64,000 bases of DNA from positions 45,747,611 through 45,811,610 of the forward strand of contig CM026426.1 in the NCBI GenBank assembly GCA_014871385.1, given 5' to 3'. Positions 7,475-64,000 of this stretch are shown here, piece after piece; position 1 is the stretch's first letter, and each line of letters begins with the position of its first letter. Position numbers and translations under genes: made by a program. The notes beneath the pieces were generated by a model. It saw only the letters and a list, made by a program, of their open reading frames with translations, ran no database searches and had not been told where the DNA came from. The DNA is from Ceratodon purpureus. Lineage: Eukaryota; Streptophyta; Bryopsida; Pseudoditrichales; Ditrichaceae.

Positions 7475-7479
7475 TGCAG

Positions 7480-21598: not shown

Positions 21599-21968
21599 GT
21601 TAGTGTGGGATCCGAGAAACTCAGAATAAACCGGAAGAGCCTCATCCGGAATTAGTATTCCATTAATTTTTCATTTTTTTGGTTAATTAGGTAAAAACTA
21701 GCTAGACACTAGCTGCATTAGGAGTTAACGCAAACTCGATGCTCCAGAAACCTAAAAACAGTTAACGTAGGAAGTATTCTCGGAACCTTGATTCCGGAAA
21801 CTCGGAAGAGAAAACACGGAACGGGTCAAAGATCCGAGAACTGACCGTTACTGTAAACCGATCTAGGATCCGAAACGACGCGGAAGTCATCATGACTCGG
21901 ATAGGCATCTAGCTCGGTACGGTGGCGGCTGCAATTACGGGCCGCCGCAGCGTTTATGATGCCCGGGG

Positions 21969-21976
21969 TATATAAG
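21969..21976 (+). promoter_or_regulatory. TATA box of the solo LTR
   Basis: TATATAAG lies 149 bases upstream of the ORF's ATG at 22125 and about 365 bases into the LTR. The same octamer is conserved in the second copy at 62401-62408 on the minus strand. It presumably sets the U3/R boundary near 22000, placing the ORF in the transcribed LTR leader. Confidence 0.65.
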
Positions 21977-22124
21977 CGAAGGTGTTAGGGTTTGGAGTCC
22001 TCTTTGCGGACTGGGAGTAGGAGTGAAAGAGTGGTGAGGTGTTTCGTCTTTTCCATTTTACTGGCAGTTGGATTGCCGGGTTTCTTGCTGTCAGATCGCA
22101 AAGGGAGAGAAGTGAGACGTAGAA

Positions 22125-24343
22125 ATGGCGCACGTCCAGTGTAGAGTTCTTAGTCGCGGCACTCCGGTGAAAGAGTCGCAGATGGAAGAATTGATTGCCG
22201 ATCTCACCCGGATGAGGTGCCAGGGTTTGCTGTCACGGCCGTGGTTGCTGAAGAATTAGGCGATGGTGAGGGAGGTCCTGGACGGACCGGACAATAGGTG
22301 GGACAACACGATCCGGGGCAAGCCCACGCTTTGAAATGCGGAACAGTGGGCGGAAACTTACGACTTCGAACAGAACGGACTTCTTTGGGCAACCTGGACG
22401 AATAGGTACGTGCAGGATAGGTTCACGGGAAGATCCATAAGAATATTGGATACGAGAAAGATGCCTGCAAGGATAGGAGGCAGAGACAGGTCTTAGCCTT
22501 CCTCGTTCCGATCCTGTATCCGCTGAAACCGGAACAGGTCACCATTACGGTCGGGAACACCATCTTCGGAGCGTACACGGGGGAACGTCCGGTGAATTGG
22601 GCCGCGCTCATGGCGGAAGTCGTGCAGAAGATGGTGCCATCGATCGGAAAGAAGCCGACCCCTATCGCCCCTTTCCTCTACCACCTTTACCACGCGTATA
22701 GCTTGCTAAGGGAGAAGGAGGAGGAGGATTATATCACGGCGAAGAACTTCCTCAGTTTTTCGGAGATTCCGCCAGGGATGGATGTCGATCCGCATGGCGA
22801 GACCTCAGATACAGCGTCCACGGAACAGGATGACGATACAGCGATCATTCCGAACCCTGGCGCTACGAAGGCTCAGTCTAAGTCACGATCAGAACGCGCT
22901 GCGTCGCAGCACGCGGAGCCCTCTACGGCCCGGGGAGATACGGAACGGAAGGAGGTCAGTTCCGAGCGAGGATTTCCGGTGGAACTGTTCCGGGGAATTC
23001 GGGAGGAGACTCATCGTGCGCAGGCCTCTTATGATCGGATCGAGACAGTGTTCTGGAGAGTTTGCACGTCACTCGGAGGCTGTTTACCGGAGGAGGTGAT
23101 CCGAGAGGTGGAGCTGTTGAAGGACGCCCCGAAACTTCGGAGTGAGAAGAAACAGTTGGAGCTCGAGTTGCAGGAGCTTACGAGGGAGCTGGCAACGAAG
23201 AGCGAGGAGATTCGGAAGTTCCATGCCGAACAGGAGGAGACCTTGGATGAGCTTCGGAAGTTGGTAGGGAATCCGGGAGCTATAGTCAACAAGGCCCGGT
23301 TGTTTGACGAGAATGTACTGCAGCCTGCAGATTTGGAGAACAAGCAGAAGATCATCATGATCCTCTCCAAATGCGAGCATTCGATGAACTTGATCCTTAA
23401 GAAGGTTTGGCAGCTGCTCAATCCGGGAGTCGGAAGTCCCAGTGTCGGAACCGCTTGTCGGAACCATCCGTTTCACGGATCTCCCTCTCGGACCGTTGTA
23501 GGGGAATCTAGAGGGGTAGGGTTCCGGACCCCAATAGAGCGCAACCTCCAGCTAGAGGAGCAGATGGCGGTCGACGCGGACATCTTCAAGCCGGCCCGGA
23601 CGATCGCAGATATGATCCGGGAACACCAACAGGTGGCGTCACCCGGAGCCAGCACGGTTCAGCAAAGCTGCGCTATCCCCACCGGTCAGGCGCAAGAGAC
23701 AGGGACTACAGTCACCGTTAGGCAATCCGAAGAGCGAACGGTTACGGAACAGGTGACCCGGCCCGCGAAGCTAGATGTCCTTCTAAGACTCGGATCGGGG
23801 GTGATCATTGCGGATTACCAAGGAGAGATAGCGGGAGCGGAATGGAGACGAGCCATTTCACCAACCGGACGGACCCGAGTGACTCAGGACGGGGCACTTA
23901 CCCCTTCACCCACAGCCAAGACCGGAATGGTGACTCCTACCCCCACCGGAACGCGAGTGGTCGACTCCCCTGCTGATAGTTCCGGTGCTAGGAGAGTTTT
24001 GAAGAAGAGGAAAGATCCGGCAGAGAAGGGCCCCATTACGATTTCCAGGTCCGACTCGGAAACTAATGCGAGCTCTCCGGTTGGGACAGCCGGAACTGGG
24101 ACTCGGACCCCTATGCCCGGAACCCCTCCCGCGCATATGTTGCCGAAGTCCCCCAATTCTCCCAAGAACCAAATCGTTACCCGGCTGTTCTTGGAGGCCC
24201 AGGCGAAGGAGTCAAAGGCGGAACGGAGTGCGAGGCGTCACGCGGAGCGGGCAGCAAGGGCAAAAGGATCCGAGCCACGGATGACCAGGTCGAAGGAGAA
24301 AGACCGCGAGCAGGAAAGCCACAAGAAGGCAAGGATGGGGTAA
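22125..24343 (+). pseudogene. LTR-borne ORF, degraded copy
   Basis: Homologous along its whole length to the intact 732-codon ORF at 60051-62249. The start MAHVQC is preserved at 22125, but there are in-frame stops soon after (TAG near 22257, TGA near 22332) and a one-base deletion near 22424 (GGTTCACGG against GGTTCCACGG). After that the frame is open from before 22592 to the TAA at 24341-24343, giving 583 codons. Visible parts: a helical N-terminal domain (RPVNWAALMAEVVQKMVP), an acidic and Ser/Arg-rich linker, a coiled coil (about 23110-23420), a Pro/Thr/Gly-rich segment with SPTAKTG-type phrases, and a basic tail. Function unknown. Confidence 0.75.
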
Positions 24344-25282
24344 ATTCCTCTCGTTGCAACTGGCCGTCACTTTCCGGATTTATAGGAGTAGATTTCGGAT
24401 CGGGAGATCCGGTTTAGTCGTAAAGTAGGATTCTAGGTAGATAACTAGGGATTAGGGTTTTTGATTGAACTGCCGGCGCCGCCGCTTTTGTGAAAGCCTC
24501 TGCTTACTTAAACGGGGAAGGCGATGCAGTCCGGGTCTTCGTTTTGCATGTTTTCTCCCTATATTCCTTATCAGTAAAGTATTCATATTTTGCAAGTACT
24601 GTGCGTGGTTTCCCGCTAAGTGTGAATGATCCGGGAAGGATATGAGAGTTCCGCTGTAGCTCGGATAGGAAGGTGATGGGAGTTGTGACGAGACTCGAAC
24701 CGGAAAGGTAATGGGATTGAGCGGAAAGATTTAGCGGATTGTCGTAGGAGTGAAGCCTCACTGTTCCGTCCCCAACCCAACCTCACGCGGAATAGCCGTC
24801 GCTAGGGTCGAAGCGGATCAAGGAGTACTTGATCGGGCTCCTTGAACTTCTGAAGAGGTTCCGTACACTGTGAGAGGGAGATTCCCAACATGGTACGGGT
24901 TGCCTAGGGATAATCGGATCCTGGTTCTCCCAGAGCCGGATTGGTTTGTCGTTGTAGTCTCACGGATTGGAAGGGATCGTCTGTGTGACCTGCTGTCCAG
25001 AGTATTCTAGGACAGTTGTGAGACGGTAACTGTTCCGAGACGTTGGGGTTTGTGGACAAAACACTTGATGTGAGAAAGAAAGAGAGAGAGAGATAGTTAA
25101 GGAGTTACGTTCCGAAGACACTATCCGAGCAGTGGCAAGGTTCGGAACGATTAGAAGTAACTACTTGGTGAAACACTATTGAATCCCTGGACGATACTCG
25201 GAACCTAGTAACAATACGGAAGTTTACGCTCAATAAGAGTGCTATCCGGATGTTAGTTGCGTTTCCGTGTTCCGACAGTTAG

Positions 25283-43371: not shown

Positions 43372-43450
43372 TTCAATTTAGACAAGTTTTGTAGAAGTTA
43401 TGGCAATATAAAGATTTTGGGGAGTTTAGAGGTCGGCCGTTGGCGGTGAT

Positions 43451-43478
43451 GGGGGGGGGGGGGAGGGGGGGGGGGGGT
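43451..43478. repeat. G homopolymer run
   Basis: About 13 G, an A, then about 12 G. Read lengths here are likely to be unreliable. Confidence 0.8.
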
Positions 43479-45568: not shown

Positions 45569-45628
45569 ATGAGATGTTTTTTGGCATCTACAAGAAACGT
45601 AGATGCCAAAATACACCTCATAAACCCT
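45569..45628. repeat. Palindromic hairpin, copy 2
   Basis: GAGATGTTTTTTGGCATCTAC pairs with GTAGATGCCAAAATACACCTC across AAGAAAC. Flanks CAAAACTTGCCCAAATTGG and TTTGGTCAAGTTTTG extend the palindrome to about 100 bases. Same module as 43312-43371. Confidence 0.65.
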
Positions 45629-45959
45629 ATTTGGTCAAGTTTTGACAAAGTTAAGGACATTTTAAGTCTGGGGGCGATTTTTTCAAAATGGTGGTCCTCG
45701 CCACCGACGGCCCCTCCCACGGCGACGGCCCCTCCTGCGGCGACGGCATCCCCCCTGCCCCCCTCAGTTGCCGCCGACGGCCCCTCTCGACGCCGCAACG
45801 GCCCTTTGCAACACCTAATCTGCATATGCCCATCTTTAAGAATCCCTTTTCACCCCACGGTGAAACCTATCCTTGTTTTCATTTTTTTTCCAAAGTCAGA
45901 GGACAACCTGGAGCGCTTGCGGACGTCATAGACGTCGTCGAGCGTACTGACAACCTTGG

Positions 45960-48073: not shown

Positions 48074-48078
48074 CCAGT

Positions 48079-48510
48079 TGGTAAAGGGAGGATTTAACCA
48101 CTAAACCCTAGCCTTCACAATCCCATAAAAACCCAACAAAATCCAACTAAATTAAGTGCTCTTTACCCTCATAGAATGCTAGAAATGTACAATACAAGTG
48201 CAAGTAGAGGTCAAAACTGCACAAAATGGGTCAAAACAGCCCCAAAACATGGTTCAGCAACTCCTAACAGCTCTTAGACCTCTCTAACTCTACCTGCTCT
48301 AGTGTAGAATGATTACAAGAAATCCTAACCTTGCCTCTTAACCTCTTGAACTGGCGGAAGTCATCCAGTCGACTGGTGACAGAGTTCATCCAGTCGGCTG
48401 GTGATAGAGTTCATCGAGCTGGCTGGATGATTGTTGAAGACAAGGATGAAAACTAAAAAGAGACTAAGGGAAACTAAGGGAAGGGGAGATTGGAAAATCT
48501 CCAGTTAACA
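48079..48510 (-). repeat. 3' LTR of element B
   Basis: 432 bases, minus sense TGTTAACTGG...CCCTTTACCA. Matches the LTRs at 40202-40640 and 41998-42430. A purine-rich stretch (GGAAAAAGGTGATAA, about 48511-48528 on the minus strand) just upstream can serve as polypurine tract. No primer block follows its end, as expected for a 3' LTR. Confidence 0.7.
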
Positions 48511-48686
48511 TTATCACCTTTTTCCGGTAGTTTTGTCCCCTGAATGGGAGGTACAGAGGAAAAGAGAAGGAAAAATGAGAACTAGCCTAGAGAAAAATGC
48601 TAAGCTAATCAAAATGTCAAAAAGAGCTAGCCCTAAAGAAAACTACCAAAAGTGAAGTCGCAGTCGAAGTGTAGTTGGGGGTGAGA

Positions 48687-51116
48687 TCAGACGGTCGGCT
48701 GGTGCGAGGTTGGCTGGGTTGCGGTCGGTGGTGCAGAAGTCGGCTCGTCGGTGTACAACCATTGCTCAAAAGTCGGGTCACGATCCTCAAACCTGGACAA
48801 CCAAGTTTGCTGACGGGTAAAGTCGGCTTTGTAGACAGTCAGCGTAGTGTCCAGATCGCGCTGCTTGGTAGGAGCATAATCACAGACAGCACGACTAAGC
48901 TCTCTGGGCTGGAGGGTGTACAAGGCCAGCTCCGTCTACAACTGCTGATTCTCTAGTAAGAGAAGTTCATCCTCTTTGAGACGGGTGCTGAAGGCAGTCT
49001 CCAACTCCAATCTGCGAAGAGAGGGAGCAGCTTTTGGTTGTGATAGAGAGCGGGCGGCGAGGTCGGCCTGTAAGGCCTGTATCTGCTGTTGGCCGGCGGT
49101 GTGGGCTCGACGCAGATCGATATGAGTGGCAGTAAGAATGCTGAGTTCGGAGTCACGGGCTGCGACAAGCTGGTGAAGCGTATGAATTATGAAGTCGCGC
49201 TCCGCTACTGCAGTTGATACTTGCTGTCGGCTGTGCTTGAGCTTCCAAGCCGCGCTACGTGTCTGTACAAGGGCGGTGGCAATAGCTTGAAGTTTGTACA
49301 GAACAACCTGAAAATCGGGTGTTTCAGCAGAGCCAACAGGGGGTGCAGCTTGCGAGTCTTGAGAAGGTCCGCCTTGCTGATGAAGAGGTCGAGAAGGTTC
49401 GCCTTGGCGCTTGGTGCGGGGACAGTGTCGGACAAGGTGCGACCGCGGAAAAAAGGAACCGCGTCCACGGGATCGACTTTGATAGAAGGCTGCGCCGAAG
49501 CTGATCGTGGAGTGTCGGGTGTAACAGGGCCATTGTAAACAACTAATTCTTAGCCTGGGAGGGTGGACCTGGCCAGAGGAGAAGAGGAGCACTCAAGAGG
49601 TGCAGACGTCCTCGTATTGGTGGGAGAAAGAGCCACAGTCGGTTGTGCTGCTGGAGCAGACCGTGGGGGTGAAGACTGTTGGTGCTAAAGGTCGGGTTGG
49701 AGAACGTAGGAGCGTGCTGCGCGGGTCAGACGGGGCGCCGGACGAACTGCACAGCTGGATGACAGGGGTGTTGAGCTCAGCACCAAGCGGAAGGTCGGGT
49801 CGGACATCCAAATCAGAGGATGCCTCGCGGTACCGTGGGAGGAGGTTGCGCAAGCGGAGCAAATAACGGCAGCTAAATGATGCTGCACTAGTAGGGGCAA
49901 CAGTTCCTCGCTGCGGAGTTGGATGAGTAGGAGACGGTTCTCTGAACGCGAGGTGACGAAGTCGTTGACCTTGGTAGGTCAGGCGACGATTAGAACGTCC
50001 CACGTCAGACGATCCTTCCTAGGACTGAGAAGTCGGCTCCGCATCTGTAAGGTCAACTGACGTGCTAAAGACCCGTTGCTTGCCGTTGCCACTAGCTCGA
50101 TCTCGAAGCTAAGAACCTGTAGGTTGGATAGTGGGGAGGCTGATGGGGGCGCCCTCATGGCTACCATCTAGCATTTTGACGCTGGATGCCATGCGTTGTG
50201 GTTAAGTAACCTCCTCTTCGTCTGGGAACCTATAGGAGAGAATGGCATCCATCACCGCAGCACCACGAAGTCGGCACGGTTTGCCAGGCTGTGAGTGACG
50301 ATAGATTAGATGCCGTTGCAGATTGGCTGGCACAAAATGAGACCAGTCGCAGGTCTGATGACGACTCTTGGCCTTCTTTGCTGCTAGGATGTGCTCCAGA
50401 AGGTCGTTTTGAACAAATAGAAATCGTTGCTTGAAGCCTGTGGCTTTGTTTAACGCTACCACATGGACCTGGTAGGCATCTGGTAACGTTGTAACACGAT
50501 TGCCATCGTGCGCAAGGTGTGCCTCTGTAAATTCATATTGAGAGTAGCGCTCGTGAAACTCAAAGCGGACCGTGTGACCAACTAAGTCGACTGCGTCTTC
50601 AAAACCTAAGGCAGTCCGGATGACATACGCAGTGGTCTCCACCGACTCGCCTCGGACCATTGACCTAATACTGTGCTCACCGGAAGCGCGGCGGACACCC
50701 CTCTGCTGCTGAACATACTCAAATCCTTCAACAAAATCAAGAATCAACTCAAGACGAGGCTTCGTCCAGTTGAAATGGTAAAATACCTCAAGACTGGTGG
50801 CGGCCGCCCAGTTGTCATCGGCCATGGCTGTCTAGGCGGCCGACTAGGTGTGCGGCTCAAAGCTGATATCAAATCAACGACGGGGGTTGCGTGAGATACG
50901 CGCTGTCTTCTGTACGCAAGCGTCCATTGCTGTCAACTTGCGCTTGATCTCTCTCCGCCGGTCGGTGGGGGCTGTCTGTGTAGGTGCAGTCAGCTTTGCA
51001 GGCTGCAACGTAGGAGGTGGTGAAGGGTCGTCAATGCCGTCCATGGCGGGGCTGGCTACCGGCTGCGTATTGGGGCCGCCTAGCTCCATCGACTCTTCAC
51101 TACCAGCGCGAGGCAA
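48687..51116 (-). pseudogene. Element B third ORF: helical domain plus coiled-coil protein
   Basis: A single minus frame from 51116 to 48687 (about 810 codons) is interrupted by several stops but keeps its phase. After a Pro-rich start, MADDNWAAATSLEVFYHFNW begins a compact helical domain (50825-50202) with VETTAYVIRTALGFEDAVDL and TCDWSHFVPANLQRHLIYRH. It is somewhat like the plant-specific helical domains found in retroelement accessory ORFs. A Ser/Pro/Arg-rich middle follows (50003-49500). A coiled coil (49300-48960) ends LRRLELETAFSTRLKEDELL then LLENQQL, like the third ORF of element A. The tail (48923-48687) has TWLSRFEDRDPTFEQWLYTD. It sits downstream of pol and upstream of the 3' LTR. 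Function unknown. Confidence 0.6.
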
Positions 51117-51139
51117 GGCACCTTGTGAGAAGTACCTCT

Positions 51140-51931
51140 CTAGGGTACCACGAGTCGCTCGTCGTTGATGTCGAAGAGGATGCTCTCGTTAATGCCGATG
51201 CTGATCAGTGGTTTGAGAGCCAAACGCTGGAAAGTAGACAAGCAGCAAATAATGGAAAGAAAATTCCAAATCGTCGGAGGAGGTATCACCCGGATGCGCG
51301 ACTGAGTGGTGGCTCCATTCCTGCTGGAGGTTTGTCGGGCAGGGTTGCGCCCTTTGAAGACCGCCGAAGCTCTGTGATGTCGGGGTTGCTGGTGAGGATT
51401 GAAGAGTGTAGGCCTTAGTGTAGACACTGGGTGGGTCTCGTGGGGTCTGCCGAAAGAGCCGCCGATGGTGAGCGCAGGATCACCGACGGGAGACGGTTGA
51501 GCTGCATTGAGCTTCACCGATACCAAAAGAGCGATGGAAACCCTAGGAGCCTGCGTAGGTGCGGCTAGACATTGGGCGGCGCTGTGCTCACAACACTGGG
51601 CAAGTACACCAAAACCTGGAAAGTCGGAAAACAAAAAGGGACGGAGTGAAGCCTGACATAGGGCGGGCGAAGCCTCCCGATGGTGTGCAATACTTCGTGG
51701 CGACTGCAATGTAGACAGCCGGGGCAGGGACGACGCAAGCTCTACAATAAGGTGCGCTGTGGGATTGCAGGAGTCCGGCAGAAAACCCTTCTCAATGGCA
51801 GGCGGAGAAGCAGTCGGAGCCAAGGTGCGACTCTCCAAGGAGGCGTTGACACAAAAACTGCTGGCGCTCAAGGTGTGGATCAAAGGATGACGGGCGAGGA
51901 GTTCGGTGGGTGCACACGCTGTCGGTGACAA
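51140..51931 (-). CDS. Open frame upstream of element B third ORF, doubtful
   Basis: 263 open codons, rich in Ser, Pro, Leu and Ala, in a different frame from the third ORF. It is unusually long for chance but has no domain and low-complexity composition. It could be a decayed 5' extension of the third ORF or an artefact of GC-rich sequence. Confidence 0.2.
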   Translation of the reverse strand: MSPTACAPTELLARHPLIHTLSASSFCVNASLESRTLAPTASPPAIEKGFLPDSCNPTAHLIVELASSLPRLSTLQSPRSIAHHREASPALCQASLRPFLFSDFPGFGVLAQCCEHSAAQCLAAPTQAPRVSIALLVSVKLNAAQPSPVGDPALTIGGSFGRPHETHPVSTLRPTLFNPHQQPRHHRASAVFKGRNPARQTSSRNGATTQSRIRVIPPPTIWNFLSIICCLSTFQRLALKPLISIGINESILFDINDERLVVP

Positions 51932-52199
51932 AGTACCTAAGGGCCGTTGCTGTAGTAAAGAGATGAAGGACTGAAGGTGGTCTGAGGGAGTTTATGCCCT
52001 ATTGCATTGGGCTGTCGACCAAACCCTAGCAAAGCAGAGTTGGTAGTTGTCGTGATGGTGGGCTAGTGTCCTGGGTTCTCAAAATCACACCAAGGCTGAG
52101 GTTGAAAGCGCCGCACTGGTGGTAGCAACGAGGATCGTTGTGGTGGTAAGCTGGGTGGCTTAGTGCTTAGTGGAATAGTATCAACCACTAGGCAGCGAG

Positions 52200-53170
52200 G
52201 GAAGCTTGTACGTGAGCGGAGAGCGCAGAGCGGAGAGCGGTGAGCGCAGATTTGGAGAGCGGAGAGCACAGAATGGGGGACAGAACCTTAAAATAGCACT
52301 TTTTTTACTAAAAATAAATTATAAAATTAGAAGATTCGAATATCCTTAGTATATTTTTGGAAATATACTTATTTTAGTAATTTAATTGACCCTATAACCG
52401 TGGACTAATTACAGTATTTTCATTGTATTTGTAGTTCGTTTTCTCTTTTCATGGTGATTAATTTTTTAACGTGCACCAATTACTATGCTCCAGCTCCTTC
52501 TTACTAGTTCAGGCATACAGTAATTCTCCTTATCTCTTTAAATTTATATGCAAATTACTACTTAAAATGTATTGGTATTGAACCTCTGAACAGGGATCAA
52601 GTAACATTTAATTTCGTAACATTTTCTTAACATTGCTAGAATTAATCCACCATAGTCTACATGCCTTTCTCCTTTTTATTACTTTTTTTTAATTTTTTTT
52701 GATATTTGTCTTGTATTTTTTATAAAATTTTCTTTATTCTATCTATCTTGTTAGAGGGGTCAATAGCCTCCTTTCATTTAATTCTCTCCTTCATTTTATT
52801 TTCACAATCATTTTATTTTCACATTCAATTTGTTAATCTCCTTCATTTTATTTTCAACCTTCATTTTAAATATTGCTATTCTTTACTTTAATCTTTTTAA
52901 TTTCGATTTATATAATTTGTTTTTTTTTTGGTTTTTTCAATTTTTTTGCATTCTTTATTTTTAAAAAAAAATTTAAATGCTAAATGACCTCTGCTAAACC
53001 TTCAGCTTTTTCCATTCGGTTTAGGAGGATGACAACTTTTAAATGAATGAATAGCCGATTTTCAAGGGCGCCAAGCATCTTCTTCAGGGATATTTAAGAT
53101 AAGAGTAGGGAATATCTCTGCCTCTTTTGTGTTGGTGTTATGTGAAGCTCTTTTCCGTAGTGCGGGACAG
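52200..53170. other. AT-rich stretch with GAGAGCG repeat at its edge
   Basis: At 52212-52270 a GAGAGCGCAGAGCGGAGAGC-type tandem repeat marks the edge. From 52290 the composition turns strongly AT-rich, with poly-T runs and CATTTTATTTTCA repeats near 52795-52870. No gene. This is foreign to element B and may be one side of the insertion carrying the SWIM fragment. Confidence 0.4.
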
Positions 53171-53175
53171 CAGCT

Positions 53176-53628
53176 ATGGAAGACGTCAGAGATATTGTTG
53201 TTTCACTTGCTGACGATGTTTGTCCATTTCAACCATATGTTGAGGTGGAGGACGAAGAAGAGGTGATGGCCAACGGCCAAGGGCGTCCTTCGACAACGGA
53301 TGTTGACGTACAACCGGATGTAAGAGCTGACCCTCCACGTTCAGAAAATTCGGATGATATCAGAGTGCTAGAGAAGGACGCAGATGTGCCTTTGCAACCA
53401 CATGCGTACTCGAAGGTTGGAAAGATCCCAAGGGGAACCTATTCCAGGGAATCAGTTAATCGGAGGCGGGGAGGTGGGCCATTGCTGAAACGTTCATACC
53501 AAGGACACGCTCCAAGTGTGGGAACGAAAGTGAATGCGAATGTAGTTTGTCCTGTAGTACAGTCAGCGGCTGGCAGTCCTGCTCATAGTGTAGTGGGCAA
53601 CCCTAAACGTGTTAGGTTCGAAGATTGA
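53176..53628 (+). CDS. Hypothetical 150-residue acidic/Arg protein
   Basis: Open from ATG 53176 to TGA 53628. The N-terminal half is acidic (PYVEVEDEEEVM), and the C-terminal half is basic and low-complexity (SRESVNRRRGGGPLLKRSYQ), ending NPKRVRFED. No family recognised. It lies inside the block that interrupts the element B pol, next to the SWIM fragment on the opposite strand. It could be the last exon of a captured gene or transposon protein. Confidence 0.4.
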   Translation: MEDVRDIVVSLADDVCPFQPYVEVEDEEEVMANGQGRPSTTDVDVQPDVRADPPRSENSDDIRVLEKDADVPLQPHAYSKVGKIPRGTYSRESVNRRRGGGPLLKRSYQGHAPSVGTKVNANVVCPVVQSAAGSPAHSVVGNPKRVRFED

Positions 53629-53882
53629 GACATCTAATAACAAATATATGTTTGCTGTAATAAAATATACATGTCAGAGGATACGAAGTATATAGTGCAC
53701 TTGTTCAAGATAGAATGATTTCAAATAGAGTGCAATCAATGAGAACGACAAAGCCTATAATATAATGAAAAAGTCAATACAGCTTCTGAATAGCTGACTT
53801 AGTACATGGTATATTACTAAAATCATTCACTACGTGACAAATGGCCATTGTGGAAATGGCAGTTCTAAAGTAGGAGGGCTAC

Positions 53883-54230
53883 CTACTTCTTCGCCAAGGG
53901 GTGACGCAAGATTCCACTCTCTAAGAGTAGCTTGGCCTCGTTGAAGCTGAAGGTAGGCGCATGGATGAAAAGCTCGGCTTCCGGATCACGGTTGCAGACC
54001 TTCAAGAGTATGTAGTATAGGTGCTTACAATACGTGAACTGAGTCTTGCCACGGAACGTAGTCATTGTCTTCTTGAATGCTGGGCAAGTGCAACCAGGGT
54101 AAGAACTGATGGTAATCTGGTACCGTGTGATGTGTGGAGCGACGCCCGAATCCAGCCCAATGATGCAACCGTGGCCCGGCTCAGGTATCATGGTGACGGA
54201 ACGGAGGCGCGCTTTAAGAGACTGTGTGTA
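53883..54230 (-). pseudogene. SWIM zinc-finger fragment
   Basis: The minus frame 54191-53883 contains the SWIM pattern C-X-C-Xn-C-X-H: YPGCTCPAF, about 18 residues, then YCKHLYYILLKVC. It is followed by AELFIHAPTFSFNEAKLLL. SWIM fingers occur in MULE-type transposases and plant FAR1-related proteins and bind DNA or protein. Only the finger and C-terminal part remain. It abuts the truncated RT of element B near 54230, in the same orientation, so the two could be read as a chimera. Confidence 0.65.
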
Positions 54231-54379
54231 TCAATATCGTGTTTGACGATGCTGGCATAGTTAGGATTCATCCTGTATCTGGCTTGATGAATTGGCGAAA
54301 CATCCTTCTCCAACACAATCCAGTGCGGGGCCATTGATGGAGGGATCTCCTTCAGATCCTTGTATGTCCAAGCAAACAC
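54230..54379 (-). pseudogene. Element B reverse transcriptase, N-terminal stub
   Basis: Reads MFAWTYKDLKEIPPSMAPHW, then PIHQARYRMNPNYASIVKHD, the typical opening of Ty3/gypsy RT. After KHDID the match ends and no catalytic (YVDD-type) motif exists in the window. Truncated to about 50 residues. Confidence 0.75.
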
Positions 54380-56060
54380 ATCGGTGTACTCCCGCAGTAG
54401 ATCTTCTGTTGCCTATGCTCACCTTGGCTCCAGTTGAGTTCTAATCTACAAGATCTCGGGTTCGTCCTCAGTGTCGACATTGATCTTTTGTAGCTACTCC
54501 ACCTCAGTCAGGTTCCAAGCTGCCACCTTCATCTTGCCCAGCTTCTCCTGTACGGGTGTCTAATCAACCTGCATCTCTGCCTCTGTAAATTTATAAAAGT
54601 GCTCGAGAATATCGGCAGAATCTGGGTGAGGAAGAGTCGTGGGCGCTAAGTCGGCTGTGTCCAAGTTGGCTCATAAGTCGGCTGCGGCAAAGTTGGCTTT
54701 GCGAGGGTCAGCTCGGTACAAGTCGGCTCTATCGGCCAGTGGAACACATAAATTCTCAAGTAGGGTGATAGTTCCGACTGCGAATATGTCCTCCTCAGTC
54801 TATAGAAAACGATCCTCATCTTCATCTATCAACCCCTCAGCTAGGTTATAACACACCAATACCTGTGGCAGCTTTGGCAAGGGTTCCTTCCTTTGATTGA
54901 TGGATATGGTCTTCATGGTACCGTTGCCGCAAATAGTCACGAGCTTGTTCCCCCTGTCGTGAGTCACTTTCGCATCTATGAGCCAGGGTCGGCCCAGCAA
55001 CATGGTGTAAGCTTCCTGAACCTTCTTGTTGTGAATGACAGTCAGACTTATGTTGTACGAAATTCCGTGGATGTGAATGCGGTCATTCCTTATCAAAGCT
55101 CCACCACTGCCTCGTCGGCCATATGCAATTGATATGGTGCTGGAGATGGATCCTTGAGTCCTAGTCGAATCCGTTCTTCCTCTGTAATCAGGTTGACGCT
55201 GAAGTCTCCATCCAACAGCACGTTCTGGAGCGTTAATTGCCCGACTTGCACAAAAATAACCGGAAGACCCCTATCAATATCCACAGCGCCAACAACAAGA
55301 TTGGGATGTACCTAGGAGCCGGTAGAACTGAGAGTCGGTTCTGAAGTCGAAGTCGGCTGAATAGTTGGGTGTATCATCTTGAAGGTCACAGAGTGCTGAG
55401 CAAATTCTATTGGTATTTTTGACTGACCCGTAACGTTAGTCAATACTTTCGCCCTAATATACTCCGTGAGATTGAGGGCCACCTCTAGCAATTCTACCAA
55501 TGATACTGTGATCGGTGTCTGCAAAATCTGTCGACTCACGGTTTTGGCCAATGCCTGCGGCTGTGAGTTGACCAGGTCCTTAGTAGCTACTTCCAAAGGC
55601 TTCTTTGGTCCCTCCTGTAGGCAATCAAGGTTGGAGAATCCAACCCTATTGTCATCTAAAATCAGCCCTCCAAAAGCATTGGTCTCAGAGTCGGCTGTGT
55701 TGGCTTTGTGTAGCGCCTCTTCAGCTTGTCTGGCCAGCTGGTTTTCTCTATTAATCTCCTCTGAAAAAACAATGCACTCCTTCCGAAGGCGCTCTTTTTT
55801 CTCCCTCTCAGCTTGTGTCTTAGGCTGTTGAGGCTCAGGCTCCTTCACCTCCTTGTCCTCCTGTGGGAGTCCAACCCTCACTCTTGCTGCTTTGGTCAAT
55901 ATAGTGGCCACCTTAGGTTCATCAAGCTCCTCCAATTCCACATTGTTGACACTGACAGTATTAGTACCTTGTTTTTCAGCGGCTAGTAGTTGCTGAAACT
56001 TCAAACTTAAGTGACAATTACGCATCTGATGGTCAGTTACCAGGCAAAGGAAACATCCAT
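54380..56060 (-). pseudogene. Element B zinc knuckle, protease and linker
   Basis: A perfect CX2CX4HX4C knuckle (CFLCLVTDHQMRNC) near 56055-56014 opens the region. A Glu/Lys/Gln linker follows (56000-55450). The protease (about 55290-54900) has the active-site loop LLDGDFSVNLI, where the normal D-T/S-G or element A D-G-G is lost, and YTMLLGRPWLIDAKVTHD. A frameshift near 55093 separates the two protease halves. The linker to RT (54880-54400) contains VLVCYNLAEGLIDEDEDRFL and further stops. Confidence 0.75.
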
Positions 56061-57369
56061 TGATTCTACCCGACCCGCCATTCTGGTACCCTCCTAGTCG
56101 GCTGGTGACAGGTCTCCTAGAGCCGCTGTTCGGCTATGTAGCCGACACCTCTTGGACTCCTACTGTCGGTTATCCTTCAGACCTTGTTAATCTGTTGTTT
56201 GGGTTGGCCAGGTTGACAAAACAGTTAATGTCTTCATGTCCGAAGTTCTTATAAATAGTGCATAACCTTTGGTTGATAGTCTGGACTCATTCTGCTTGGG
56301 CTGAGGTGGCAACAGCTCGACTGCTAGTTGACTCTGTCTTCTTAGCTTGGAAATACAGCTTCTTACCCAAAGCGTCTGTGCAATTGGTCTCACAGCGTTG
56401 TGCTAACTCCTTCAACTCGGTCAGAGAGTTGGCTGTAGACCCACTAGTGGTCACCTTTAGGTAAATGAGTAACCTTGCTCTGAAGTAGGTCTGTTTAAAC
56501 CCTTCGCTCACGTCACTCTGCAAGCATTTGATTAACTTCATAAATCATTCATAGTAATCCTGAACCTTTTCCCCTTCACCCTGCTTGAAGGTTTGCAGCG
56601 TCATATAGACTTATTCATCTGAATCCTGAATTTTGAGATGAGCGTCGAGGTCGTTTTCCCCCTTGTAGGCCCTGTAAGGTAACTGCTTCCTTTGTGCGCT
56701 AACAGGCGGTCGGAGGGGTGCTGAAGTGAAGTCGTTCGTGCGAACGGGTGGCAATACGAAGTGAACATTCTTACCAGGGCCGCCCTCAGTCCAGTTTGGA
56801 AGCCCTTGCTGTTGAACTGATCGACTCTCCGTGTCCTCCAACTTCTGCCTCAAGTTTTTGAATGGAGCTCGCAATGTCTCTGGAGTTTTTGGCAGGCGCA
56901 CCGGAGATACTCGTTGGTTGCGTAACTGAGTCAGCTCCGCTTCCTAGTTGACTCTTCTAGTGACTATACTCGGCCACTGGGTCGGCTTTGTGAAGACTTC
57001 TTGTGTTTGTCGTCTCTCTTCACGGAAGATGTAGTGGTCATCCACAGCAATGGAGAAGTCCCTCCTGAACAATGCCGTTCAGTTTATGTCTTGATACCTC
57101 CATGAAACGCTGGTCGGATCTGGCTAACGACTCAGCCTATTGCCTTTTTTGAACTATGTTTCTCCTCCAAATTTGCTCTCCCTTGTTCTCTCATCCGATG
57201 ATGAGAGGTCGTGTTCCACCTCCATGTCGATAAGCTTTCTGACCTGCTTAGCCGCACTAACCTGCGAGCTAAGTCGGCCATGCCCTTCTGTTAGAGTCGG
57301 CTCTGTCGTCTGCTCCTCTCGTTGCATATATCGTCTATAGCGCTCTATGGCTTGTCTCTCCGTTGTCAA
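56061..57369 (-). pseudogene. Element B gag with core deletion
   Basis: Fragments in order: N-terminal MQREEQTTEPTLTEGHGRLS and MEVEHDLSSSDE (57369-57154), a coiled segment (TLRAPFKNLRQKLEDTESRS, near 56875), the capsid start (QLPYRAYKGENDLDAHLK, near 56660), then a jump to KVQDYYE and FMKLIKCLQSDVSEGFKQTY (near 56560-56480). Compared with element A, about 60 residues of the capsid core are missing between these. A degenerate first zinc knuckle (LCTIYKNFGHEDINC) is near 56240. Confidence 0.65.
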
Positions 57370-57599
57370 GTCATTCTGGTCACCATCCTCTATGGGTGTT
57401 GACTACTTGGGTGTTCAATCGGCTTTGTTTCCTCCCTGATGTCTGCAGCTGGTGCTCTGCTTCTGTTTTGGTCGGCTTTGCTTGGCCTCCTCCAAACTCT
57501 AGTCAGTCAACCACCCTTTCTGTAGTTTCTGCCAATTTAGCACTAACTGACCCACCAAGTCGGCTGTGTAGTCAGGTTAGTACCAACAATTAGTTTCAC

Positions 57600-58298: not shown

Positions 58299-58588
58299 CC
58301 CTGAAGTTACCCATGTGGGACGGCCCACAGTCAATCCACTGTTTTCCGCACCGATCGGCTACAATACCGCCACAATTTCAGAAGGTTCACACATTGAGCC
58401 ATCTATTCGGCACCTTCCGGCACATCATCGACTAACACATGTGATGTGTCCTCCTGTATCACCAGCCGTACGCACAACCAACTTCACTTCAGCACCTCCT
58501 CAACCGCTTGTCAGTGCACATCGGGAGCAGTTACCTTACAAGGCCTACAAGGAGGGCATGACCTTGACGCTCATCTCAGGTAATTCGA
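58299..58588 (+). pseudogene. Element C gag, continuation after element B
   Basis: A plus frame with RTTNFTSAPPQPLVSAHREQ then LPYKAYKEGM. It matches the gag of element B (56760-56660, other strand) and continues in frame from 48073. It ends abruptly at about 58588, where minus-strand sequence of the ORF-in-LTR family begins. Confidence 0.65.
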
Positions 58589-58589
58589 T

Positions 58590-59114
58590 AAGTGCGTCTG
58601 GCTCAATGGTAGAGGGTGCCATTGGATTGTCTTCCTCGTCTTCTTCCTCTTCCTCGGTCTCCTCTTCTACTCCTGCGTCGGCTTCGACTTCGTCAGCTAC
58701 GACTTCTTCTTCTTCCGGATCTGGAGCTGTACGCGGTCCGGCTGCGGAGGTTCCGGCCAACGATACCACGATTACGTCTCCTTCTCGTTCTACAGCAGTC
58801 TGGATCCGGGGAAGTAGATTCGTCCCCGGTAGATCGTGTACCAAAACTCTTCCCCTCTTCTGTAGCAACCGAGTGGATCTTCTTCCCCCTAACTCTTCCG
58901 GTTGCGCCCCAACCATGGAAGAGATTGGGAATTCTTCTTCCCATTCCTCGGAAGGCAGGATCTGTACGTAAGACTTCCGCCTACCGCATATCCACCTAAA
59001 TGAAGCCTTCACGGTCTGACTCCACTTTTCTTCAAATCTGCGCTCACTTATCTTCCGAGTATCTACCTGGTTCACAGCTTATCGAATCCCCGGCAGCGGC
59101 GCCAGATTTTTACG
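58590..59114 (-). pseudogene. ORF-in-LTR family: start of internal region (gag leader)
   Basis: Downstream of the primer-binding site, a frame from 59075 to 58545 reads YVQILPSEEWEEEFPISSMV, a basic/hydrophobic stretch, and a very acidic tail (VEEETEEEEEDEED). It probably forms the N-terminal part of the gag-like first internal ORF. The listed start is a GTG, so the true start is unknown. It is truncated at the junction with element C at about 58588. Confidence 0.45.
59088..59104 (-). promoter_or_regulatory. Primer-binding site of the ORF-in-LTR family
   Basis: Minus sense TGGCGCCGCTGCCGGGG, 10 bases after the LTR end. It closely matches the plant gypsy/Athila primer site TGGCGCCGTTGCCGGGG, attributed to tRNA-Asp, with one difference. 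This is what identifies 59115-62774 as an LTR and its sense as minus. Confidence 0.8.
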
Positions 59115-60050
59115 TGTCGGAATACGGAAACGCAACTAACATCCGGATAGTGCTCTAATTGAGCGTAAACTTCCGTACTGTCACTAGGTTCCGAGTATCG
59201 TCCAGGGATTCAATAGTGTTTCACCAAGTAGTTACTTCTAATCGTTCCGAGCCTTGCCACTGCTCGGATAGTGTCTTCGGAACGTAACTCCTGAACTATC
59301 TCCTTCTCTATTCTTCTCTCATTAGGTGTTTCGTCCACAAACCCCAACGTCTCGGATCAGTTACCGTCTCACAACTGTCCTAGAGTACTCTGGCCAGCAG
59401 GTCACACAAACGATCCTCTCCGATCCGTGGGACTACAACGACAAACCAATCCGGATCTGGGAGAACCAGGATCCGATTATCCCTAGGCGACCCGTACCAC
59501 GTTCCGACTCCCCCTCTCACTGTGCACGGAACCTCTTCAGAAGTTCAGGGAGCCCGACCAAGTAGTTCTTGATCCGCTTCGACCCTAGCGACGGCTATTC
59601 CGTATGAGGTTAATTTGGGGGCGGAACAGTGAGGCTTCACTCCTACGACAATCCGCTAAATCTTTCCGCTCAATCCCATCTCCTTTCCGGTTCGGGTCTC
59701 GTCGCAACTCCCATCACCTTCCTATCCGAGCTACAGCGGAACTCTCATATCCTTCCCGGATCATTCACACTTAGCTGGAAATCACTTACAGTACTTACAA
59801 AACACAAAATACTTTACTGATAAGGAATATAGGGGGAAAACATGCAAAAACGAAGACCCGGACCGCATCGCCTGCCTGGTTTAAGTAAGCAGGGGCTTCC
59901 ACAAAAGCGGCGGCGCCGGCAGTTCAATCAAAACCCTAATCCCTAACTACCTACCTAGAATTCTACTTTACGACTAGGACGGATCTCCCGATCCGGAATC
60001 TACTCCTATAAATCCGGAAAGTTACGACAAGTGGCAGTGAGAGGAATCTA

Positions 60051-62249
60051 TCACTTCTTTGTCTTCTTGTGGCTCTCCTGCTCGCGATCCTTCGACCTGG
60101 TCACCCGCGGCTCTGATCCGCCCGCCCCTGCTGCTCGTGCCGCCTTGCGCCTAGCGCTCCGTTCCGCCTTTGACTCCCTCTCCTGAGCCTCCAAGGACAA
60201 CCGGGTAATGATCCGGGGCTTGGGAGAATTGGGCGATTTCGGGATCATATGTGCGGGAGGGGTTCCGGACGTCGGAGTCCGAGTTTCAGTTCCGGTGGTC
60301 CTGACCGGAGAGCTCTCACGCGTCTCTGAATCGGACTCTGAAATCGTAATCGGGACCTCCTTCCATTTCCGCAACCTCCGGTAAGCACCGACACTGTTCG
60401 GAGGGGAATCCGCTGCCGGCGTTCCGGTGGGAGTAGGCGTCACCGTTCCGGTCTTGGCTGTGGGTGAAGGGGTCAATCCCCCCTCCTGAGTCACTCGGGT
60501 CCGTCCGGGTGGTGAAATAGGTCGTCCCCATTCCGGTCCCGCTACCTCCCCTTGGTAATTCGCAATGATCACCTCCTCTCCGAGTCGTGGAAGAACATCC
60601 GGCGGCACGGTCCGAGTCACCTGTTCCGAAACCGTCCTCTCCTCGATCCGCCTCTCGGTGACTGTCGTTCCGGTCACCTCCACCTGACCTGTGGGGATCG
60701 CGCAGCTCTGCTGGACTGTACTGGTTCCGGGTGACGCCACTTGTGCTTGGTGTTCCCGGAGCACATCTGCAATCGTCCGATTTGTCATGGCGGCCTCTTC
60801 GACTGTCATCCGCTCCTCGACTTGGAGGTTACTCCCTATCGGGGTTCGGAACCCCACTCCGCGAGATTCTCCTACCACGGCACGAGAGGGCGATCCGGTG
60901 AGCGGAAGGCTCCGACCAGCGACTCCAAGACTGGGACTTCCGGTACTCGGATTGAGCAGCTGCCGGACCTTCTTCAGGATCATGTTCATCGAGTGCTCGC
61001 ATTTGGAGAGGATCATGATGATCCTCTGCTTGTCCTCGAAATCAGCCGGCTGCACTACGTTCTCATCAAACAGCCGGGCCTTGTTGATTATCGCTCCCGA
61101 ACTTCCCACCAACTTCCGAAGCTCCCCCAAAGTCTCCTCCTGCTCGGCGTGGAACTTACGGATCTCATCACTCTTGGCTGCCAGTTCCTTTGTCAGCTCC
61201 TGCAACTGAAGCTCTAGCCGCTTCTTCTCACTCCGGAGATTTGGGGCGTCCTTCAACAACTCCACTTCTCGGATCACCTCTTCCGGTAAGCACCCTCCCA
61301 GTGATGTACAGACCCTCCGGAACAGGGTTTCGATCCGATCGTAAGAAGCTTGCGCCCGGTGAGTTTCCTCCCGAATCCCCCGAAATAGGTCCACCGGAAA
61401 TCCCCGATCGGAACTGACCTCTCTCCGTTCCGGATCTCCCCGGGCCGTAGACGGCTCCGCGTGTCGTGACGCAGCCTGCTCCGATCGCGATCTGGACTGG
61501 GCCCTAGTAGCGCCAGGGTTCGGAACCTCCTTCGTATCGTCCTCATCTTCCGAGGACGTTGTATCCGAGAGCTCACCTCGCGGATCGGGTTCCATTCCGG
61601 GCGAAATCTCCGAGAATTTGAGGCAATTCTTTGCGTGCGTATACGTCTCGTCCTCCTTATCGGTCAGCAAGTCATACGCATGGTAAAGGTGAAAGAGGAA
61701 AGGGGAGAGTGGGGTCGGCTTCTTTCCGATCGTCGGCACCATCTTCTGCACCACTTCCGCCATGAGTGCGGCCCAATTCACCGGGCGTTCTCCTGAGTAC
61801 GCTCCGAGGATGGTGTTCCCGACCGTAATGGTGACCTGTGCCGGTTTTTGCGGATACAGGATTGGAACGAGGAAAGCTAAGACCTGCCTCTGCCTCCTAT
61901 CCTTGCAGGCGTCTATCTCGTATCCATTGTTCCTATGGATCTTCCCGTGGAACCTATCCTGCACGTACTTATCCGTCCGGGTCGCCCAAAGGAGTCCCTT
62001 CTGCTCGAAACCGTAAGCTTCCGCCCACTGTTCCGCATTCCACAGCGTGGGCTTGCCTCGGATCGTATTATCCCACCGGTTGTCCGGACCTTCCAGGACC
62101 TCCCTCACCATCACCTCACTCTTCAGTAACCACGGCCGTGCCAACAATCCCTCACACCTCATCCGAGTGAGGTCGGTGATCAGTTCCTCCATATCCGATT
62201 CCTTCACTGGAGTTCCGGGGCTAAGGATGCTACACTGCACGTGCGCCAT
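60051..62249 (-). CDS. LTR-encoded protein, 732 residues, intact
   Basis: ATG at 62249, TGA at 60051-60053, no interruption. N-terminal about 215 residues: a helical, Trp-containing domain (MEELITDLTRMRCEGLLARP, VLAFLVPILYPQKPAQVTIT, RPVNWAALMAEVVQKMVPTI, SPFLFHLYHAYDLL). It is somewhat like plant-specific transposon-associated helical domains. Residues about 215-270 are acidic, then Arg/Ser-rich. Residues about 330-430 form a strong coiled coil (LRSEKKRLELQLQELTKELA). The rest is Pro/Thr/Ser/Gly-rich with SPTAKTGTVTPTPTGTP repeats, ending in a basic helical tail (KAERSARRKAARAAGAGGSE). No catalytic motif, zinc finger or signal peptide. It is the only long intact ORF in the window. Conservation with the damaged copy at 22125-24343 argues it was maintained. 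Function unknown; RNA binding, assembly or host interaction are possibilities only. Confidence 0.75.
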   Translation of the reverse strand: MAHVQCSILSPGTPVKESDMEELITDLTRMRCEGLLARPWLLKSEVMVREVLEGPDNRWDNTIRGKPTLWNAEQWAEAYGFEQKGLLWATRTDKYVQDRFHGKIHRNNGYEIDACKDRRQRQVLAFLVPILYPQKPAQVTITVGNTILGAYSGERPVNWAALMAEVVQKMVPTIGKKPTPLSPFLFHLYHAYDLLTDKEDETYTHAKNCLKFSEISPGMEPDPRGELSDTTSSEDEDDTKEVPNPGATRAQSRSRSEQAASRHAEPSTARGDPERREVSSDRGFPVDLFRGIREETHRAQASYDRIETLFRRVCTSLGGCLPEEVIREVELLKDAPNLRSEKKRLELQLQELTKELAAKSDEIRKFHAEQEETLGELRKLVGSSGAIINKARLFDENVVQPADFEDKQRIIMILSKCEHSMNMILKKVRQLLNPSTGSPSLGVAGRSLPLTGSPSRAVVGESRGVGFRTPIGSNLQVEERMTVEEAAMTNRTIADVLREHQAQVASPGTSTVQQSCAIPTGQVEVTGTTVTERRIEERTVSEQVTRTVPPDVLPRLGEEVIIANYQGEVAGPEWGRPISPPGRTRVTQEGGLTPSPTAKTGTVTPTPTGTPAADSPPNSVGAYRRLRKWKEVPITISESDSETRESSPVRTTGTETRTPTSGTPPAHMIPKSPNSPKPRIITRLSLEAQERESKAERSARRKAARAAGAGGSEPRVTRSKDREQESHKKTKK

Positions 62250-62400
62250 CTCTACTCCTTACTTCTCTCCCTCTACGACCCGACAGCAAGAAACCCGGCA
62301 ATCCAACTGCCGGTGAATCGGAAAAGACAAAAACACCTCACCGCTCTTTCACTCTCTACTCCCAGTTCGCAAGAAGGAACTCCAAACCCTAACACCCCCG

Positions 62401-62408
62401 CTTATATA
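62401..62408 (-). promoter_or_regulatory. TATA box of the giant LTR
   Basis: TATATAAG on the minus strand, 159 bases upstream of the ORF start and at the same relative place as 21969-21976 in the solo LTR. It lies about 370 bases inside the LTR, consistent with a U3 promoter. Confidence 0.65.
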
Positions 62409-62774
62409 CCCCAGGCATAATAAACGCTGTGGCGGCCCGTAATTGCAGCCGCCAACGTACCGGGGTAAACGCCTATCCGAGTCATGATGACTTCCGCGTC
62501 GCTTCGGATCCTTGACGCGGTTACAGTAACGGTCAGTACTCGGATCGTCCACCCGTTCCGTATCTTATCTTCCGAGTTTCCGGAATCCAGGTTCCGGGAA
62601 CACTTCCTACGTTAACTGTTTTAACGTTTCTGGAGTATCCGGTTTGCGTTAACTACTAATACTGCTAGTGTCTGGCCAGTTTTTACCTAATTAACCAAAA
62701 AAAATGAAAAATTAATGGAATACTTACGCCGGCTGGGGTTCTTCCGGGTTATTCTGAGTTTCTCGGATCCCACA

Positions 62775-62795
62775 CTCTCCAAAGTATCCCACTTT
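62775..62795 (-). promoter_or_regulatory. Candidate polypurine tract
   Basis: GGATACTTTGGAGAG directly precedes the LTR start TGTGGG in the minus sense. Purine-rich with a GGAGAG end, as expected for a polypurine tract; supports internal sequence on this side belonging to an element whose 3' LTR is 59115-62774. Confidence 0.45.
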
Positions 62796-63159
62796 TCAAC
62801 ACTCCTCCGGAACACTACTGAAGACAATAGTACCAACAAACCATACGGCAACGGATCCGTCAGTAGCCGGTTGACACAACAAATCCAAAAGTATATTCTC
62901 AATTGCAACAACAAAACGGCGTACAAAAACAAGGCCCCGGCCTTGGAAAAACGTCCAGCTTAAATACTAAACCTATCGATCCTAAAGCGACCAAGTGGCC
63001 CACCGAGATCCTGAAATTCCGGTTCTTGGATCCGAGAATTCCGGACCGGTGGCTGCCTTCTATTCCTAGTTAGTGCCGCTACCTATCCGGATTGGCAGCC
63101 GGGTGCACTTGAGCCCCATCGTTGGTCGTTGCCATTTTATCTGGTACTTATCCTAACTT
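62796..63159 (-). other. Internal non-coding region of the ORF-in-LTR family
   Basis: Between the last internal ORF and the polypurine tract. Same GC-rich, TCCGG-rich vocabulary as the LTR. No ORF called. Confidence 0.4.
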
Positions 63160-64000
63160 CTACTCCTTGTTCTTATCGAACCGGGGACTGTGTCGGGTTC
63201 CGTCCATCCGTTCCTTCTTCTGTAATCCCTTCTTCAGCCTCTTCAGCGAGGGGCCTTCTTCCGGAGTATCAGCTGCCGACTGGTCGATGGCCTTCGGGGA
63301 TCGTCCTGCTTGAACCGCCGGCGATGGAGATCGTGCCGCCACCGGAACTGCGCTGAGATTCCCCTCGAGATGTTCCGGAGATCCCTGTAGCGGCACAAAG
63401 TCTTCCGGTGGTGGGCCTTAGTCCGGTTCTAAGGGGATGCTTCGGGGGTTAACAGTCCTAATTCCAGCCAGTGTGTGCAGAGTGTGCAAACTGCTCAAGG
63501 TATCCGGGATAGGATCCTCCTGCGGTTGTCCTAACTCCGGTTGGACTGGCCGGATGGTCGACCGTACCGGAGAGGCCGGAAGTGGCACCTGTGCCGGTTC
63601 CCTGGTTGGTCCGGTGGTCTGGGCTCCTCCCAATCTGCCGGTGGCTCTGGTGGTCTTGACGGACCGTCCTTTGCTGCACTGATGATCTTTACATGGTTCC
63701 TCATCTGCACCCAAGTGTCCTTCATCACCTGCGTCCGGTCGTGCATGAATTTCACGATCTTTGAGGTTACCGGAGTCGGTTGACGGGTCAAGAAGGCTTG
63801 GTAAACGGCGCACTGATTGGCCACATCCACGGGAAGGGCTAAAGTGGCCTTGACCTCGACGACCGACTGGATGGCATAGGCTGCCCGTTCACGGGCGTCA
63901 TTGAAATCCTTTTGGGCATCACGCACCTCTTGCTCAAGCTTGTGAATCCGCTCCCAGTACTGTTCTATCCTGTCTATATGCTTGGTCTGTAGACTAGCTA
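63160..64000 (-). pseudogene. Internal ORF upstream of the giant LTR, partial
   Basis: Minus frame from the window edge: VVEVKATLALPVDVANQCAV and KFMHDRTQVMKDTWVQMRNH (a helical domain, 63926-63650). A frame change near 63610-63640 leads into a Pro/Thr/Arg-rich region (63600-63420), a TAG at 63418-63420, and a basic tail (GPSLKRLKKGLQKKERMDGT) to 63160. It ends about 385 bases before the LTR, so it is probably the last internal ORF of an element continuing beyond the window. No pol motif. Function unknown. Confidence 0.45.

Follow-up and report, generated by a model that had tools for sequence, protein, structure and literature searches.

Long terminal repeats (LTRs) are normally regulatory only. 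A known analogue of the case reported here is sag of the mouse mammary tumour virus (MMTV)-like betaretroviruses, a gene that lies in the LTR, mostly in U3, and most found copies of which are solo LTRs, according to the accessible text of PMC4667437. In plants, additional open reading frames (aORFs) are located mostly between pol and the 3' LTR, or internally upstream of gag-pol, in the available parts of PMC7264820, PMC11728184 and PMC11963269. The ORF0 of Retrosat2/FRetro3, restricted to grasses, is situated upstream of the gag-pol open reading frame (ORF) in elements whose LTRs exceed 3.2 kb (PMC3485330, available in part). VANC proteins are the anti-silencing proteins of the VANDAL DNA transposons, as described in the accessible portions of PMC5735166 and PMC10398659. 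In this study, a 64,000-nucleotide stretch of the Ceratodon purpureus genome (assembly GCA_014871385.1, contig CM026426.1, positions 45,747,611 to 45,811,610 of the forward strand), hereafter the window, was found to carry two copies of a 3.66-kb LTR of a Ty3/gypsy retrotransposon family, one of them with an uninterrupted 732-codon ORF.

With this ORF, the family is an apparent plant counterpart of sag. In both cases, a protein gene resides in the LTR and purifying selection is of similar strength (one-ratio omega of 0.289 for sag in the available text of PMC4667437, approximately 0.25 here). As far as that text goes, the present ORF differs from the mostly U3-located sag in lying 3' of a TATA box, and its carrier differs in clade, Ty3/gypsy, and in having a plant host; the likeness drawn between the two genes is one of location and selection. 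With the plant aORFs it shares the presence, in a gypsy element, of an extra conserved protein of function not known, but it is placed inside the LTR instead of the internal region, and no LTR-borne aORF is described in the accessible parts of PMC7264820, PMC11728184 and PMC11963269. Retrosat2/FRetro3 is similar in its LTRs of over 3.2 kb and in the extra ORF before gag-pol, although ORF0 is not placed in the LTR by the available text of PMC3485330. No plant LTR-borne ORF was found in the partly accessible open PMC literature searched by exact phrases. This agrees with a sequence-only reading of the window, made by a model from the letters and a list of ORFs, which had known of no plant family of this kind and had named sag as the usual example.

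The two LTR copies in the window are collinear, 85.4% identical, and both start with TGTGGGATCC and end with TTCCGACA. The copy on the minus strand (59115..62774, 3,660 bp; L001 among the genomic copies) is a 5' LTR, with ends and primer site as in the other genomic 5' LTRs. Its primer-binding site TGGCGCCGCTGCCGGGGA (59087..59104, minus strand), which we take to be of the tRNA-Asp type, is located 10 nt 3' of the LTR and gave one match against a mean of 0.02 in shuffled sequence. The ORF (60051..62249, minus strand) encodes 732 aa and occupies positions 526-2724 of the 3,660-bp LTR, thus lying wholly within it. When the LTR was subjected to 500 mononucleotide shuffles, the longest open frame had 301 codons, against 735 codons for that of the ORF. 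The TATA box TATATAAG (62401..62408, minus strand) starts 159 nt before the ORF, and the next ATG 3' of it is the ATG of the ORF itself, leaving a leader without ATG; the only TATATAA of this LTR is upstream of the ORF. The second copy, on the plus strand (21604..25277, 3,674 bp), is older and is flanked by the target-site duplication GTTAG on its left (21599..21603, plus strand) and right (25278..25282, plus strand), and is therefore a solo LTR. Its ORF (22125..24343, plus strand) has decayed: near the start, a single nucleotide is deleted and two in-frame stops occur, while the last 640 codons are open. The collinear copies with their shared ends, the primer site behind one of them and the uninterrupted ORF 159 nt after TATATAAG had all been reported in the sequence-only reading, and each was recovered here.

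The element in the window is incomplete. Its LTR is followed by a remnant of the 5' internal region of about 535 bp, including the start of gag (58580..59114, minus strand; in frame with the start of the gag ORF of the internal region L031 described below), and then by inverted sequence of another element. The full-length structure was therefore established on other genomic copies. The point at which the internal region gives way to inverted gag sequence of the other element falls within 58545-58600.

A search of the source genome (362.5 Mb, 151 contigs) with the LTR, in which 39 of 813 candidates were scored, yielded at least 41 matches. Diverged copies were missed, since the 85%-identical solo LTR of the window was absent from the matches listed. 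Structure was analysed in the best 30 of these at least 41 matches to the intact query, a sample that leans towards young copies, and these comprised 10 5' LTRs, 11 3' LTRs, 8 solo LTRs and one unclassified copy. All 30 copies start with TGTGGGATC and end with CGACA. The primer site is found 10 nt downstream of the 5' LTRs (10 copies, 0-1 mismatch), the polypurine tract AAAATGGGGTAA directly precedes the 3' LTRs (11 copies, 0 mismatches), and the solo LTRs are bordered by 5-bp duplications (8 copies). As these features sit exactly at the ends given in the sequence-only reading, the LTRs are not shorter than it had supposed. Elements with this LTR at both ends, which it had predicted, are also present: nine 5'/3' LTR pairs were formed, and their outer flanks, compared by eye, share 5 bp in 9/9 cases. 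The spacing from start to start is 9,710-9,717 bp in six of the nine pairs, which corresponds to an element of 13.4 kb; the three wider-spaced pairs are taken to be nested insertions. The pair L005/L006 shows zero differences at the compared bases, so the family has recently been mobile.

The internal region between L003 and L002 (L031, 6,057 bp) encodes gag, a zinc-knuckle ORF and, in 1,381 codons, pol; the domains PF03732, PF00098, PF00078, PF17917, PF17921 and PF00665 occur in this order (gag, then reverse transcriptase-RNase H-integrase). When it was compared with that of a second element (L032), the ratio of the proportions of non-synonymous and synonymous differences (pN/pS) was 0.12 in pol, 0.09 in the zinc-knuckle ORF and 0.27 in the N-terminal part of gag, and a single stop codon and a single gap of 1 nt were seen. 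The family is apparently an autonomous Ty3/gypsy LTR retrotransposon of about 13.4 kb, organised as LTR, primer-binding site, gag, pol, polypurine tract and LTR. Among the matches listed, the four insertions on C6, the contig of the window (L001, L002/L003, L004 and L005/L006), group together as a single clade with support of 100/99, although the bootstrap had not settled completely; they are 0.4-0.6% apart, as against 1.9-3.0% from the 17 other copies compared. We read this clade as a burst specific to C6 and possibly to a sex chromosome, since C6 (110.5 Mb) presumably is the V sex chromosome of C. purpureus.

The ORF is intact, with 731-736 codons, in 23/30 copies including L001, namely in 6 of the 8 solo LTRs and 17 of the 22 others. 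The remaining seven ORFs are broken, only that of L003 having a frame-changing length. Across 31 aligned rows (the 30 copies plus the solo LTR of the window), TATATAAG and the position of the first ATG are kept in every row, at a distance of 156-159 nt, rows from one insertion not being independent in such counts. It is close to certain that the 3.66-kb LTR is a gene unit consisting of a TATA box, an ATG-free leader, a selected ORF and, 3' of this, a conserved stretch of about 0.93 kb. It is just as nearly certain that this gene is present twice in each full element, and that promoter and intact gene are kept together in 6/8 of the solo LTRs examined. The sequence-only reading had anticipated two gene copies per full element and solo LTRs able to keep promoter and gene; the former is borne out on the paired LTRs and the latter by the intact ORFs and retained TATA boxes, and the ORF is not missing from most copies, a finding which it had named as damaging. 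The LTRs of this family are thus complete promoter-plus-gene units under purifying selection, of which a solo LTR can leave an intact gene, and solo LTRs are to be counted as possible genes.

If the TATA box marks the border of U3 and R, the ORF would lie in R/U5, ahead of the primer site, as the sequence-only reading had proposed. The ORF might alternatively be located in U3, like sag of MMTV, with genomic RNA arising from an unrecognised promoter 3' of the ORF and the protein from a sub-genomic RNA. A second promoter would be expected to make the 0.93 kb 3' of the ORF long and highly conserved, as it is (8.4% different between the window copies, against a synonymous rate, dS, of 0.51), but the sole TATATAA of the LTR precedes the ORF, its distance from the ATG being 156-159 nt in 31/31 rows, and we consider this arrangement unlikely. 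A candidate poly(A) site (TGTGTT/TTGTAA, LTR positions 2969/2975) is missing from the solo copy in the window and is not claimed.

Purifying selection acts on the LTR ORF. In a comparison of the two window copies, the non-synonymous rate (dN) is 0.128 and dS is 0.51, a ratio of 0.25 (bootstrap 0.20-0.32), and pN/pS pooled over 21 copies is also 0.25; the value near 1 that would have spoken against the sequence-only reading was thus not obtained. For the pooled set, one LTR per insertion was used where paired, and L023 and L025 in it may be one duplicated insertion because the mate of L025, L022, has 12 bases of its 3' flank in common with L023. The identical 12-base 3' flank of the 3' LTRs L022 (contig C12) and L023 (C9) is ATATGCACATCA, indicating either a duplicated locus or a duplicated insertion. 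Among the indels in the 31 rows, 6/8 inside the ORF are multiples of 3, compared with 0/16 outside, and both frame-changing ORF indels fall in broken ORFs (L003 and the window solo LTR). Changes accumulated after insertion, pooled over the nine LTR pairs, gave a pN/pS of 0.30 from 21 synonymous and 19 non-synonymous changes, of which L017/L028 contributes 17 and 12, and this 0.30 is not informative as a neutral control. The two LTRs of that pair are 22.6 kb apart and diverge by 1.5%; although their flanks share 5 bp, such a synonymous-rich pattern would be expected of two different insertions, or of conversion, rather than of decay. A chance capture of the ORF in one lineage, without function, could be argued from the absence of similarity above the cut-off between the window protein and any named family. 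Such a capture is scarcely credible in view of the ratio of 0.25, the frame-keeping indels, the 23/30 intact copies and the presence on other contigs of homologues with 30-59% identity.

These homologues came from protein searches in which the 7,999 best candidates were scored. The first search gave 17 related proteins and the second 31, with at least 35 different ones in all, a lower bound. Identity to the window protein is 95% for P0001, 78% for P0033, 59% for P0002 and 30-40% for the other 32. Most homologues share near-invariant stretches in the N-terminal 200 residues, including DNRWD and VTITVGNT, and the basic C-terminal tail with a TRS motif is also present in P0001, P0002, P0008 and P0013, the homologues which reach that far. 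As judged from its sequence, the window protein also has a coiled-coil-like region and a long low-complexity region; its N-terminal domain was predicted to be helical in the sequence-only reading. No DNA of relatives was confirmed in searches of viral contigs and genome contigs. Capture of the ORF from the host was rejected, no relative having been found among Pfam families above the cut-off (window protein) or in the PDB. Homology with the Athila-type aORF (Transposase_32, PF20167), which had been suggested by eye, was likewise not supported: the window protein has no PF20167 match at E 10, a scan of 36 members did not bring up this family in the 25 shown out of 29, and hhalign gave a probability of 0.1 for the LTR protein against an aORF-like protein of the window. 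A decayed element in the window (48511-50831, minus strand) has an aORF-like protein with a weak PF20167 match (E 0.089, below the cut-off), which, by eye, precedes a putative polypurine tract and an LTR start TGTTAACTGG.

The non-coding parts of the LTR evolve more slowly than the synonymous sites of the ORF. The two window copies differ by 11.5% in the 5' flank and by 8.4% in the 3' flank, compared with 31% at fourfold sites; after removal of CpG, the fourfold sites still differ by 26% and the flanks by 10% and 8%. In the young family, pS is 0.065 and the flanks stand at 0.021. It follows that the non-coding LTR is subject to strong constraint or to homogenisation. Constraint in cis fits this pattern, as the rate changes at the boundaries of the ORF and does so again in the young family; recombination may be an alternative cause of the lower flank divergence.

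TCCG/CGGA is abundant in both the coding and the non-coding sequence of the element, strongly so in the LTR and pol, and this tagging is a new observation. The 3,660-bp window LTR contains 119 such sites (111-126 across the 31 rows), roughly one per 30 bp. Counted on either strand, TCCGA and TCCGG reach 8 to 13 times the density in the LTR flanks and ORF that they have elsewhere in the window. TCCG and CGGA are the top two 4-mers of the flanks (25 vs 8.8 and 20 vs 7.2, first-order Markov control). In the LTR ORF, 74 sites were counted against 42.2 (sd 4.9; highest of 2,000, 57) in shuffles preserving amino acids and codon usage. A stricter control, 150 synonymous shuffles which also keep codon-junction dinucleotides, gave 49.8 (z 5.4, rank 1 of 135 4-mers). 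Under this control, pol has 135 sites vs 88.5 (z 8.8, rank 1 of 136); the strict gag and pol counts are from one internal region (L031), with L032 added in an earlier count. Both orientations of the motif are enriched, which favours recognition of double-stranded DNA over that of RNA. Flank motifs are kept between the window copies in 39/45 and 39/42 cases (rank 2 of 62 4-mers), compared with 184/281 for other CG-ended 4-mers, and ORF motifs in 46/74 and 46/67 (rank 3 of 101). In the young family, fourfold sites within motifs are less variable than others (11/87 vs 81/306, p 0.006).

A mutational or compositional bias, due to the reverse transcriptase or to context-dependent mutation, could produce the TCCG/CGGA excess without any binding partner. 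The sites are indeed scattered through the ORF, gag and pol as well as the flanks, parts of different function, and the young-family flanks show no excess conservation of the motif. Other repeat blocks of the window also have favoured 5-mers of their own (2001-7500, GACCA/TGGTC; 42501-47500, ACGGC/CGACG; 47501-57500, CCGAC/AGTCG); codon-shuffle tests on the decayed ORFs of those three blocks revealed no comparably strong word. However, CpG is not depleted in the LTR (observed/expected 1.04), so that CpG depletion cannot make the pattern and the excess is not the selective survival of one CpG context. Moreover, ACCG, CCCG and GCCG occur only 33-42 times each, as against 119 for TCCG, the excess in the LTR ORF and pol persists under the codon, amino-acid and junction controls, and fourfold motif sites are less variable. 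Bias of this kind is accordingly given a minor share of our belief.

The best explanation overall, which we regard as probable though far from assured, combines the gene-unit anatomy of the LTR with a nuclear factor that recognises tags. RNA initiated in the LTR would have the LTR protein translated from its first ORF; the basic tail could direct this protein to the nucleus and the coiled coil could allow it to multimerise. The protein would recognise TCCG[AG] tags on element DNA and, acting in trans, would keep the family transcribed by anti-silencing or activation, in the manner of VANC for VANDAL transposons. With the gene placed in the LTR, solo LTRs could go on supplying the factor. The element L011/L012, whose two LTRs share one truncated ORF of 513 codons, is consistent with a protein acting, and a mobilisation occurring, in trans. 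The distant relative adjoining the window LTR, described below, also speaks for this explanation through its matching order of TATA box, ATG-free leader and ORF and its richness in TCCGG/CCGG. In the accessible text of PMC5735166 and PMC10398659, the VANC/VANDAL system is likewise a family enriched for its own short motif and encoding a protein with conserved and variable parts; VANC, unlike the present protein, belongs to a DNA transposon family, and the two are likened by mode of working and not by sequence. By this analogy, a specific VANC-like, TCCG[AG]-recognising function is put forward tentatively. That the lineage put a sequence-specific regulatory gene into its LTR and spread the TCCG[AG] tag through its own genes is a conjecture to which we attach similarly modest weight. 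If true, the family would be an auto-regulating, self-marked system sustained even by solo LTRs, with related families having shifted tags, for example CCGG. Through its element-wide motif, the family allows a direct test of whether a transposon marks its own DNA, including the coding parts, to be recognised in trans.

Several observations weigh against a tag-recognising factor. The sole Pfam match of the window protein is below the cut-off, a Pfam scan of 36 members gave scattered weak matches (best E 0.0009 in 2/36, among the 25 families shown out of 29), and the window protein has no match in the PDB. The truncated ORF shared by L011 and L012 could come from conversion between the LTRs. VANC motifs are mainly in non-coding tandem repeats, according to the available part of PMC5735166, whereas the motif here is dispersed, coding regions included. 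Under the strict control, the excess is weaker in the zinc-knuckle gag (23 vs 17.1, z 2.6, rank 1 of 128) and the N-terminal gag (30 vs 24.6, z 2.2, rank 4 of 129), the highest of 150 shuffles also reaching 23 and 30, and in the 535-bp internal remnant the motif falls outside the top ten 4- or 5-mers by enrichment. For the two window copies, the fourfold test gives p 0.087 or 0.003 depending on the copy that defines the sites (rank 4 of 19). In the young family, fourfold conservation ranks the motif 8 of 43, and its conservation in the flanks is not significant (16/170 vs 148/1,291 variable columns, p 0.52; rank 26 of 67 4-mers). The motif conservation tests are mixed overall.

The LTR protein could also be a structural or accessory replication protein, such as a gag-like particle component or an RNA chaperone, the TCCG tags being bound by something else. 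The coiled-coil-like region, basic tail and long low-complexity region would also suit a particle or RNA-binding protein, and the ORF, if transcribed from the LTR TATA box, would be the first of the genomic RNA. However, the element already possesses a gag that includes a capsid domain and zinc knuckles, and the enrichment of both motif orientations is unlike an RNA packaging signal; such a role appears possible but doubtful next to that of a tag-recognising factor.

The window LTR appears to have been inserted into a distant relative, part of which occupies 62775..64000 on the minus strand. The coiled-coil part of its ORF is at 63534-63998 and aligns weakly with the LTR protein (E 0.018; in a second comparison, E 0.0013 and probability 18%). 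The N-terminal domain, just outside the window (L033:313-1047), matches the family profile with an E of 2.9e-43, and we infer that both parts form one gene. At the DNA level, 62775-64000 has no significant similarity to the LTR (best E 0.32). The order in this neighbour, TATAAA, 211 nt without ATG and the ORF, is the same as in the family LTR, and TCCGG (10 vs 1.5) and CCGG abound in this region.

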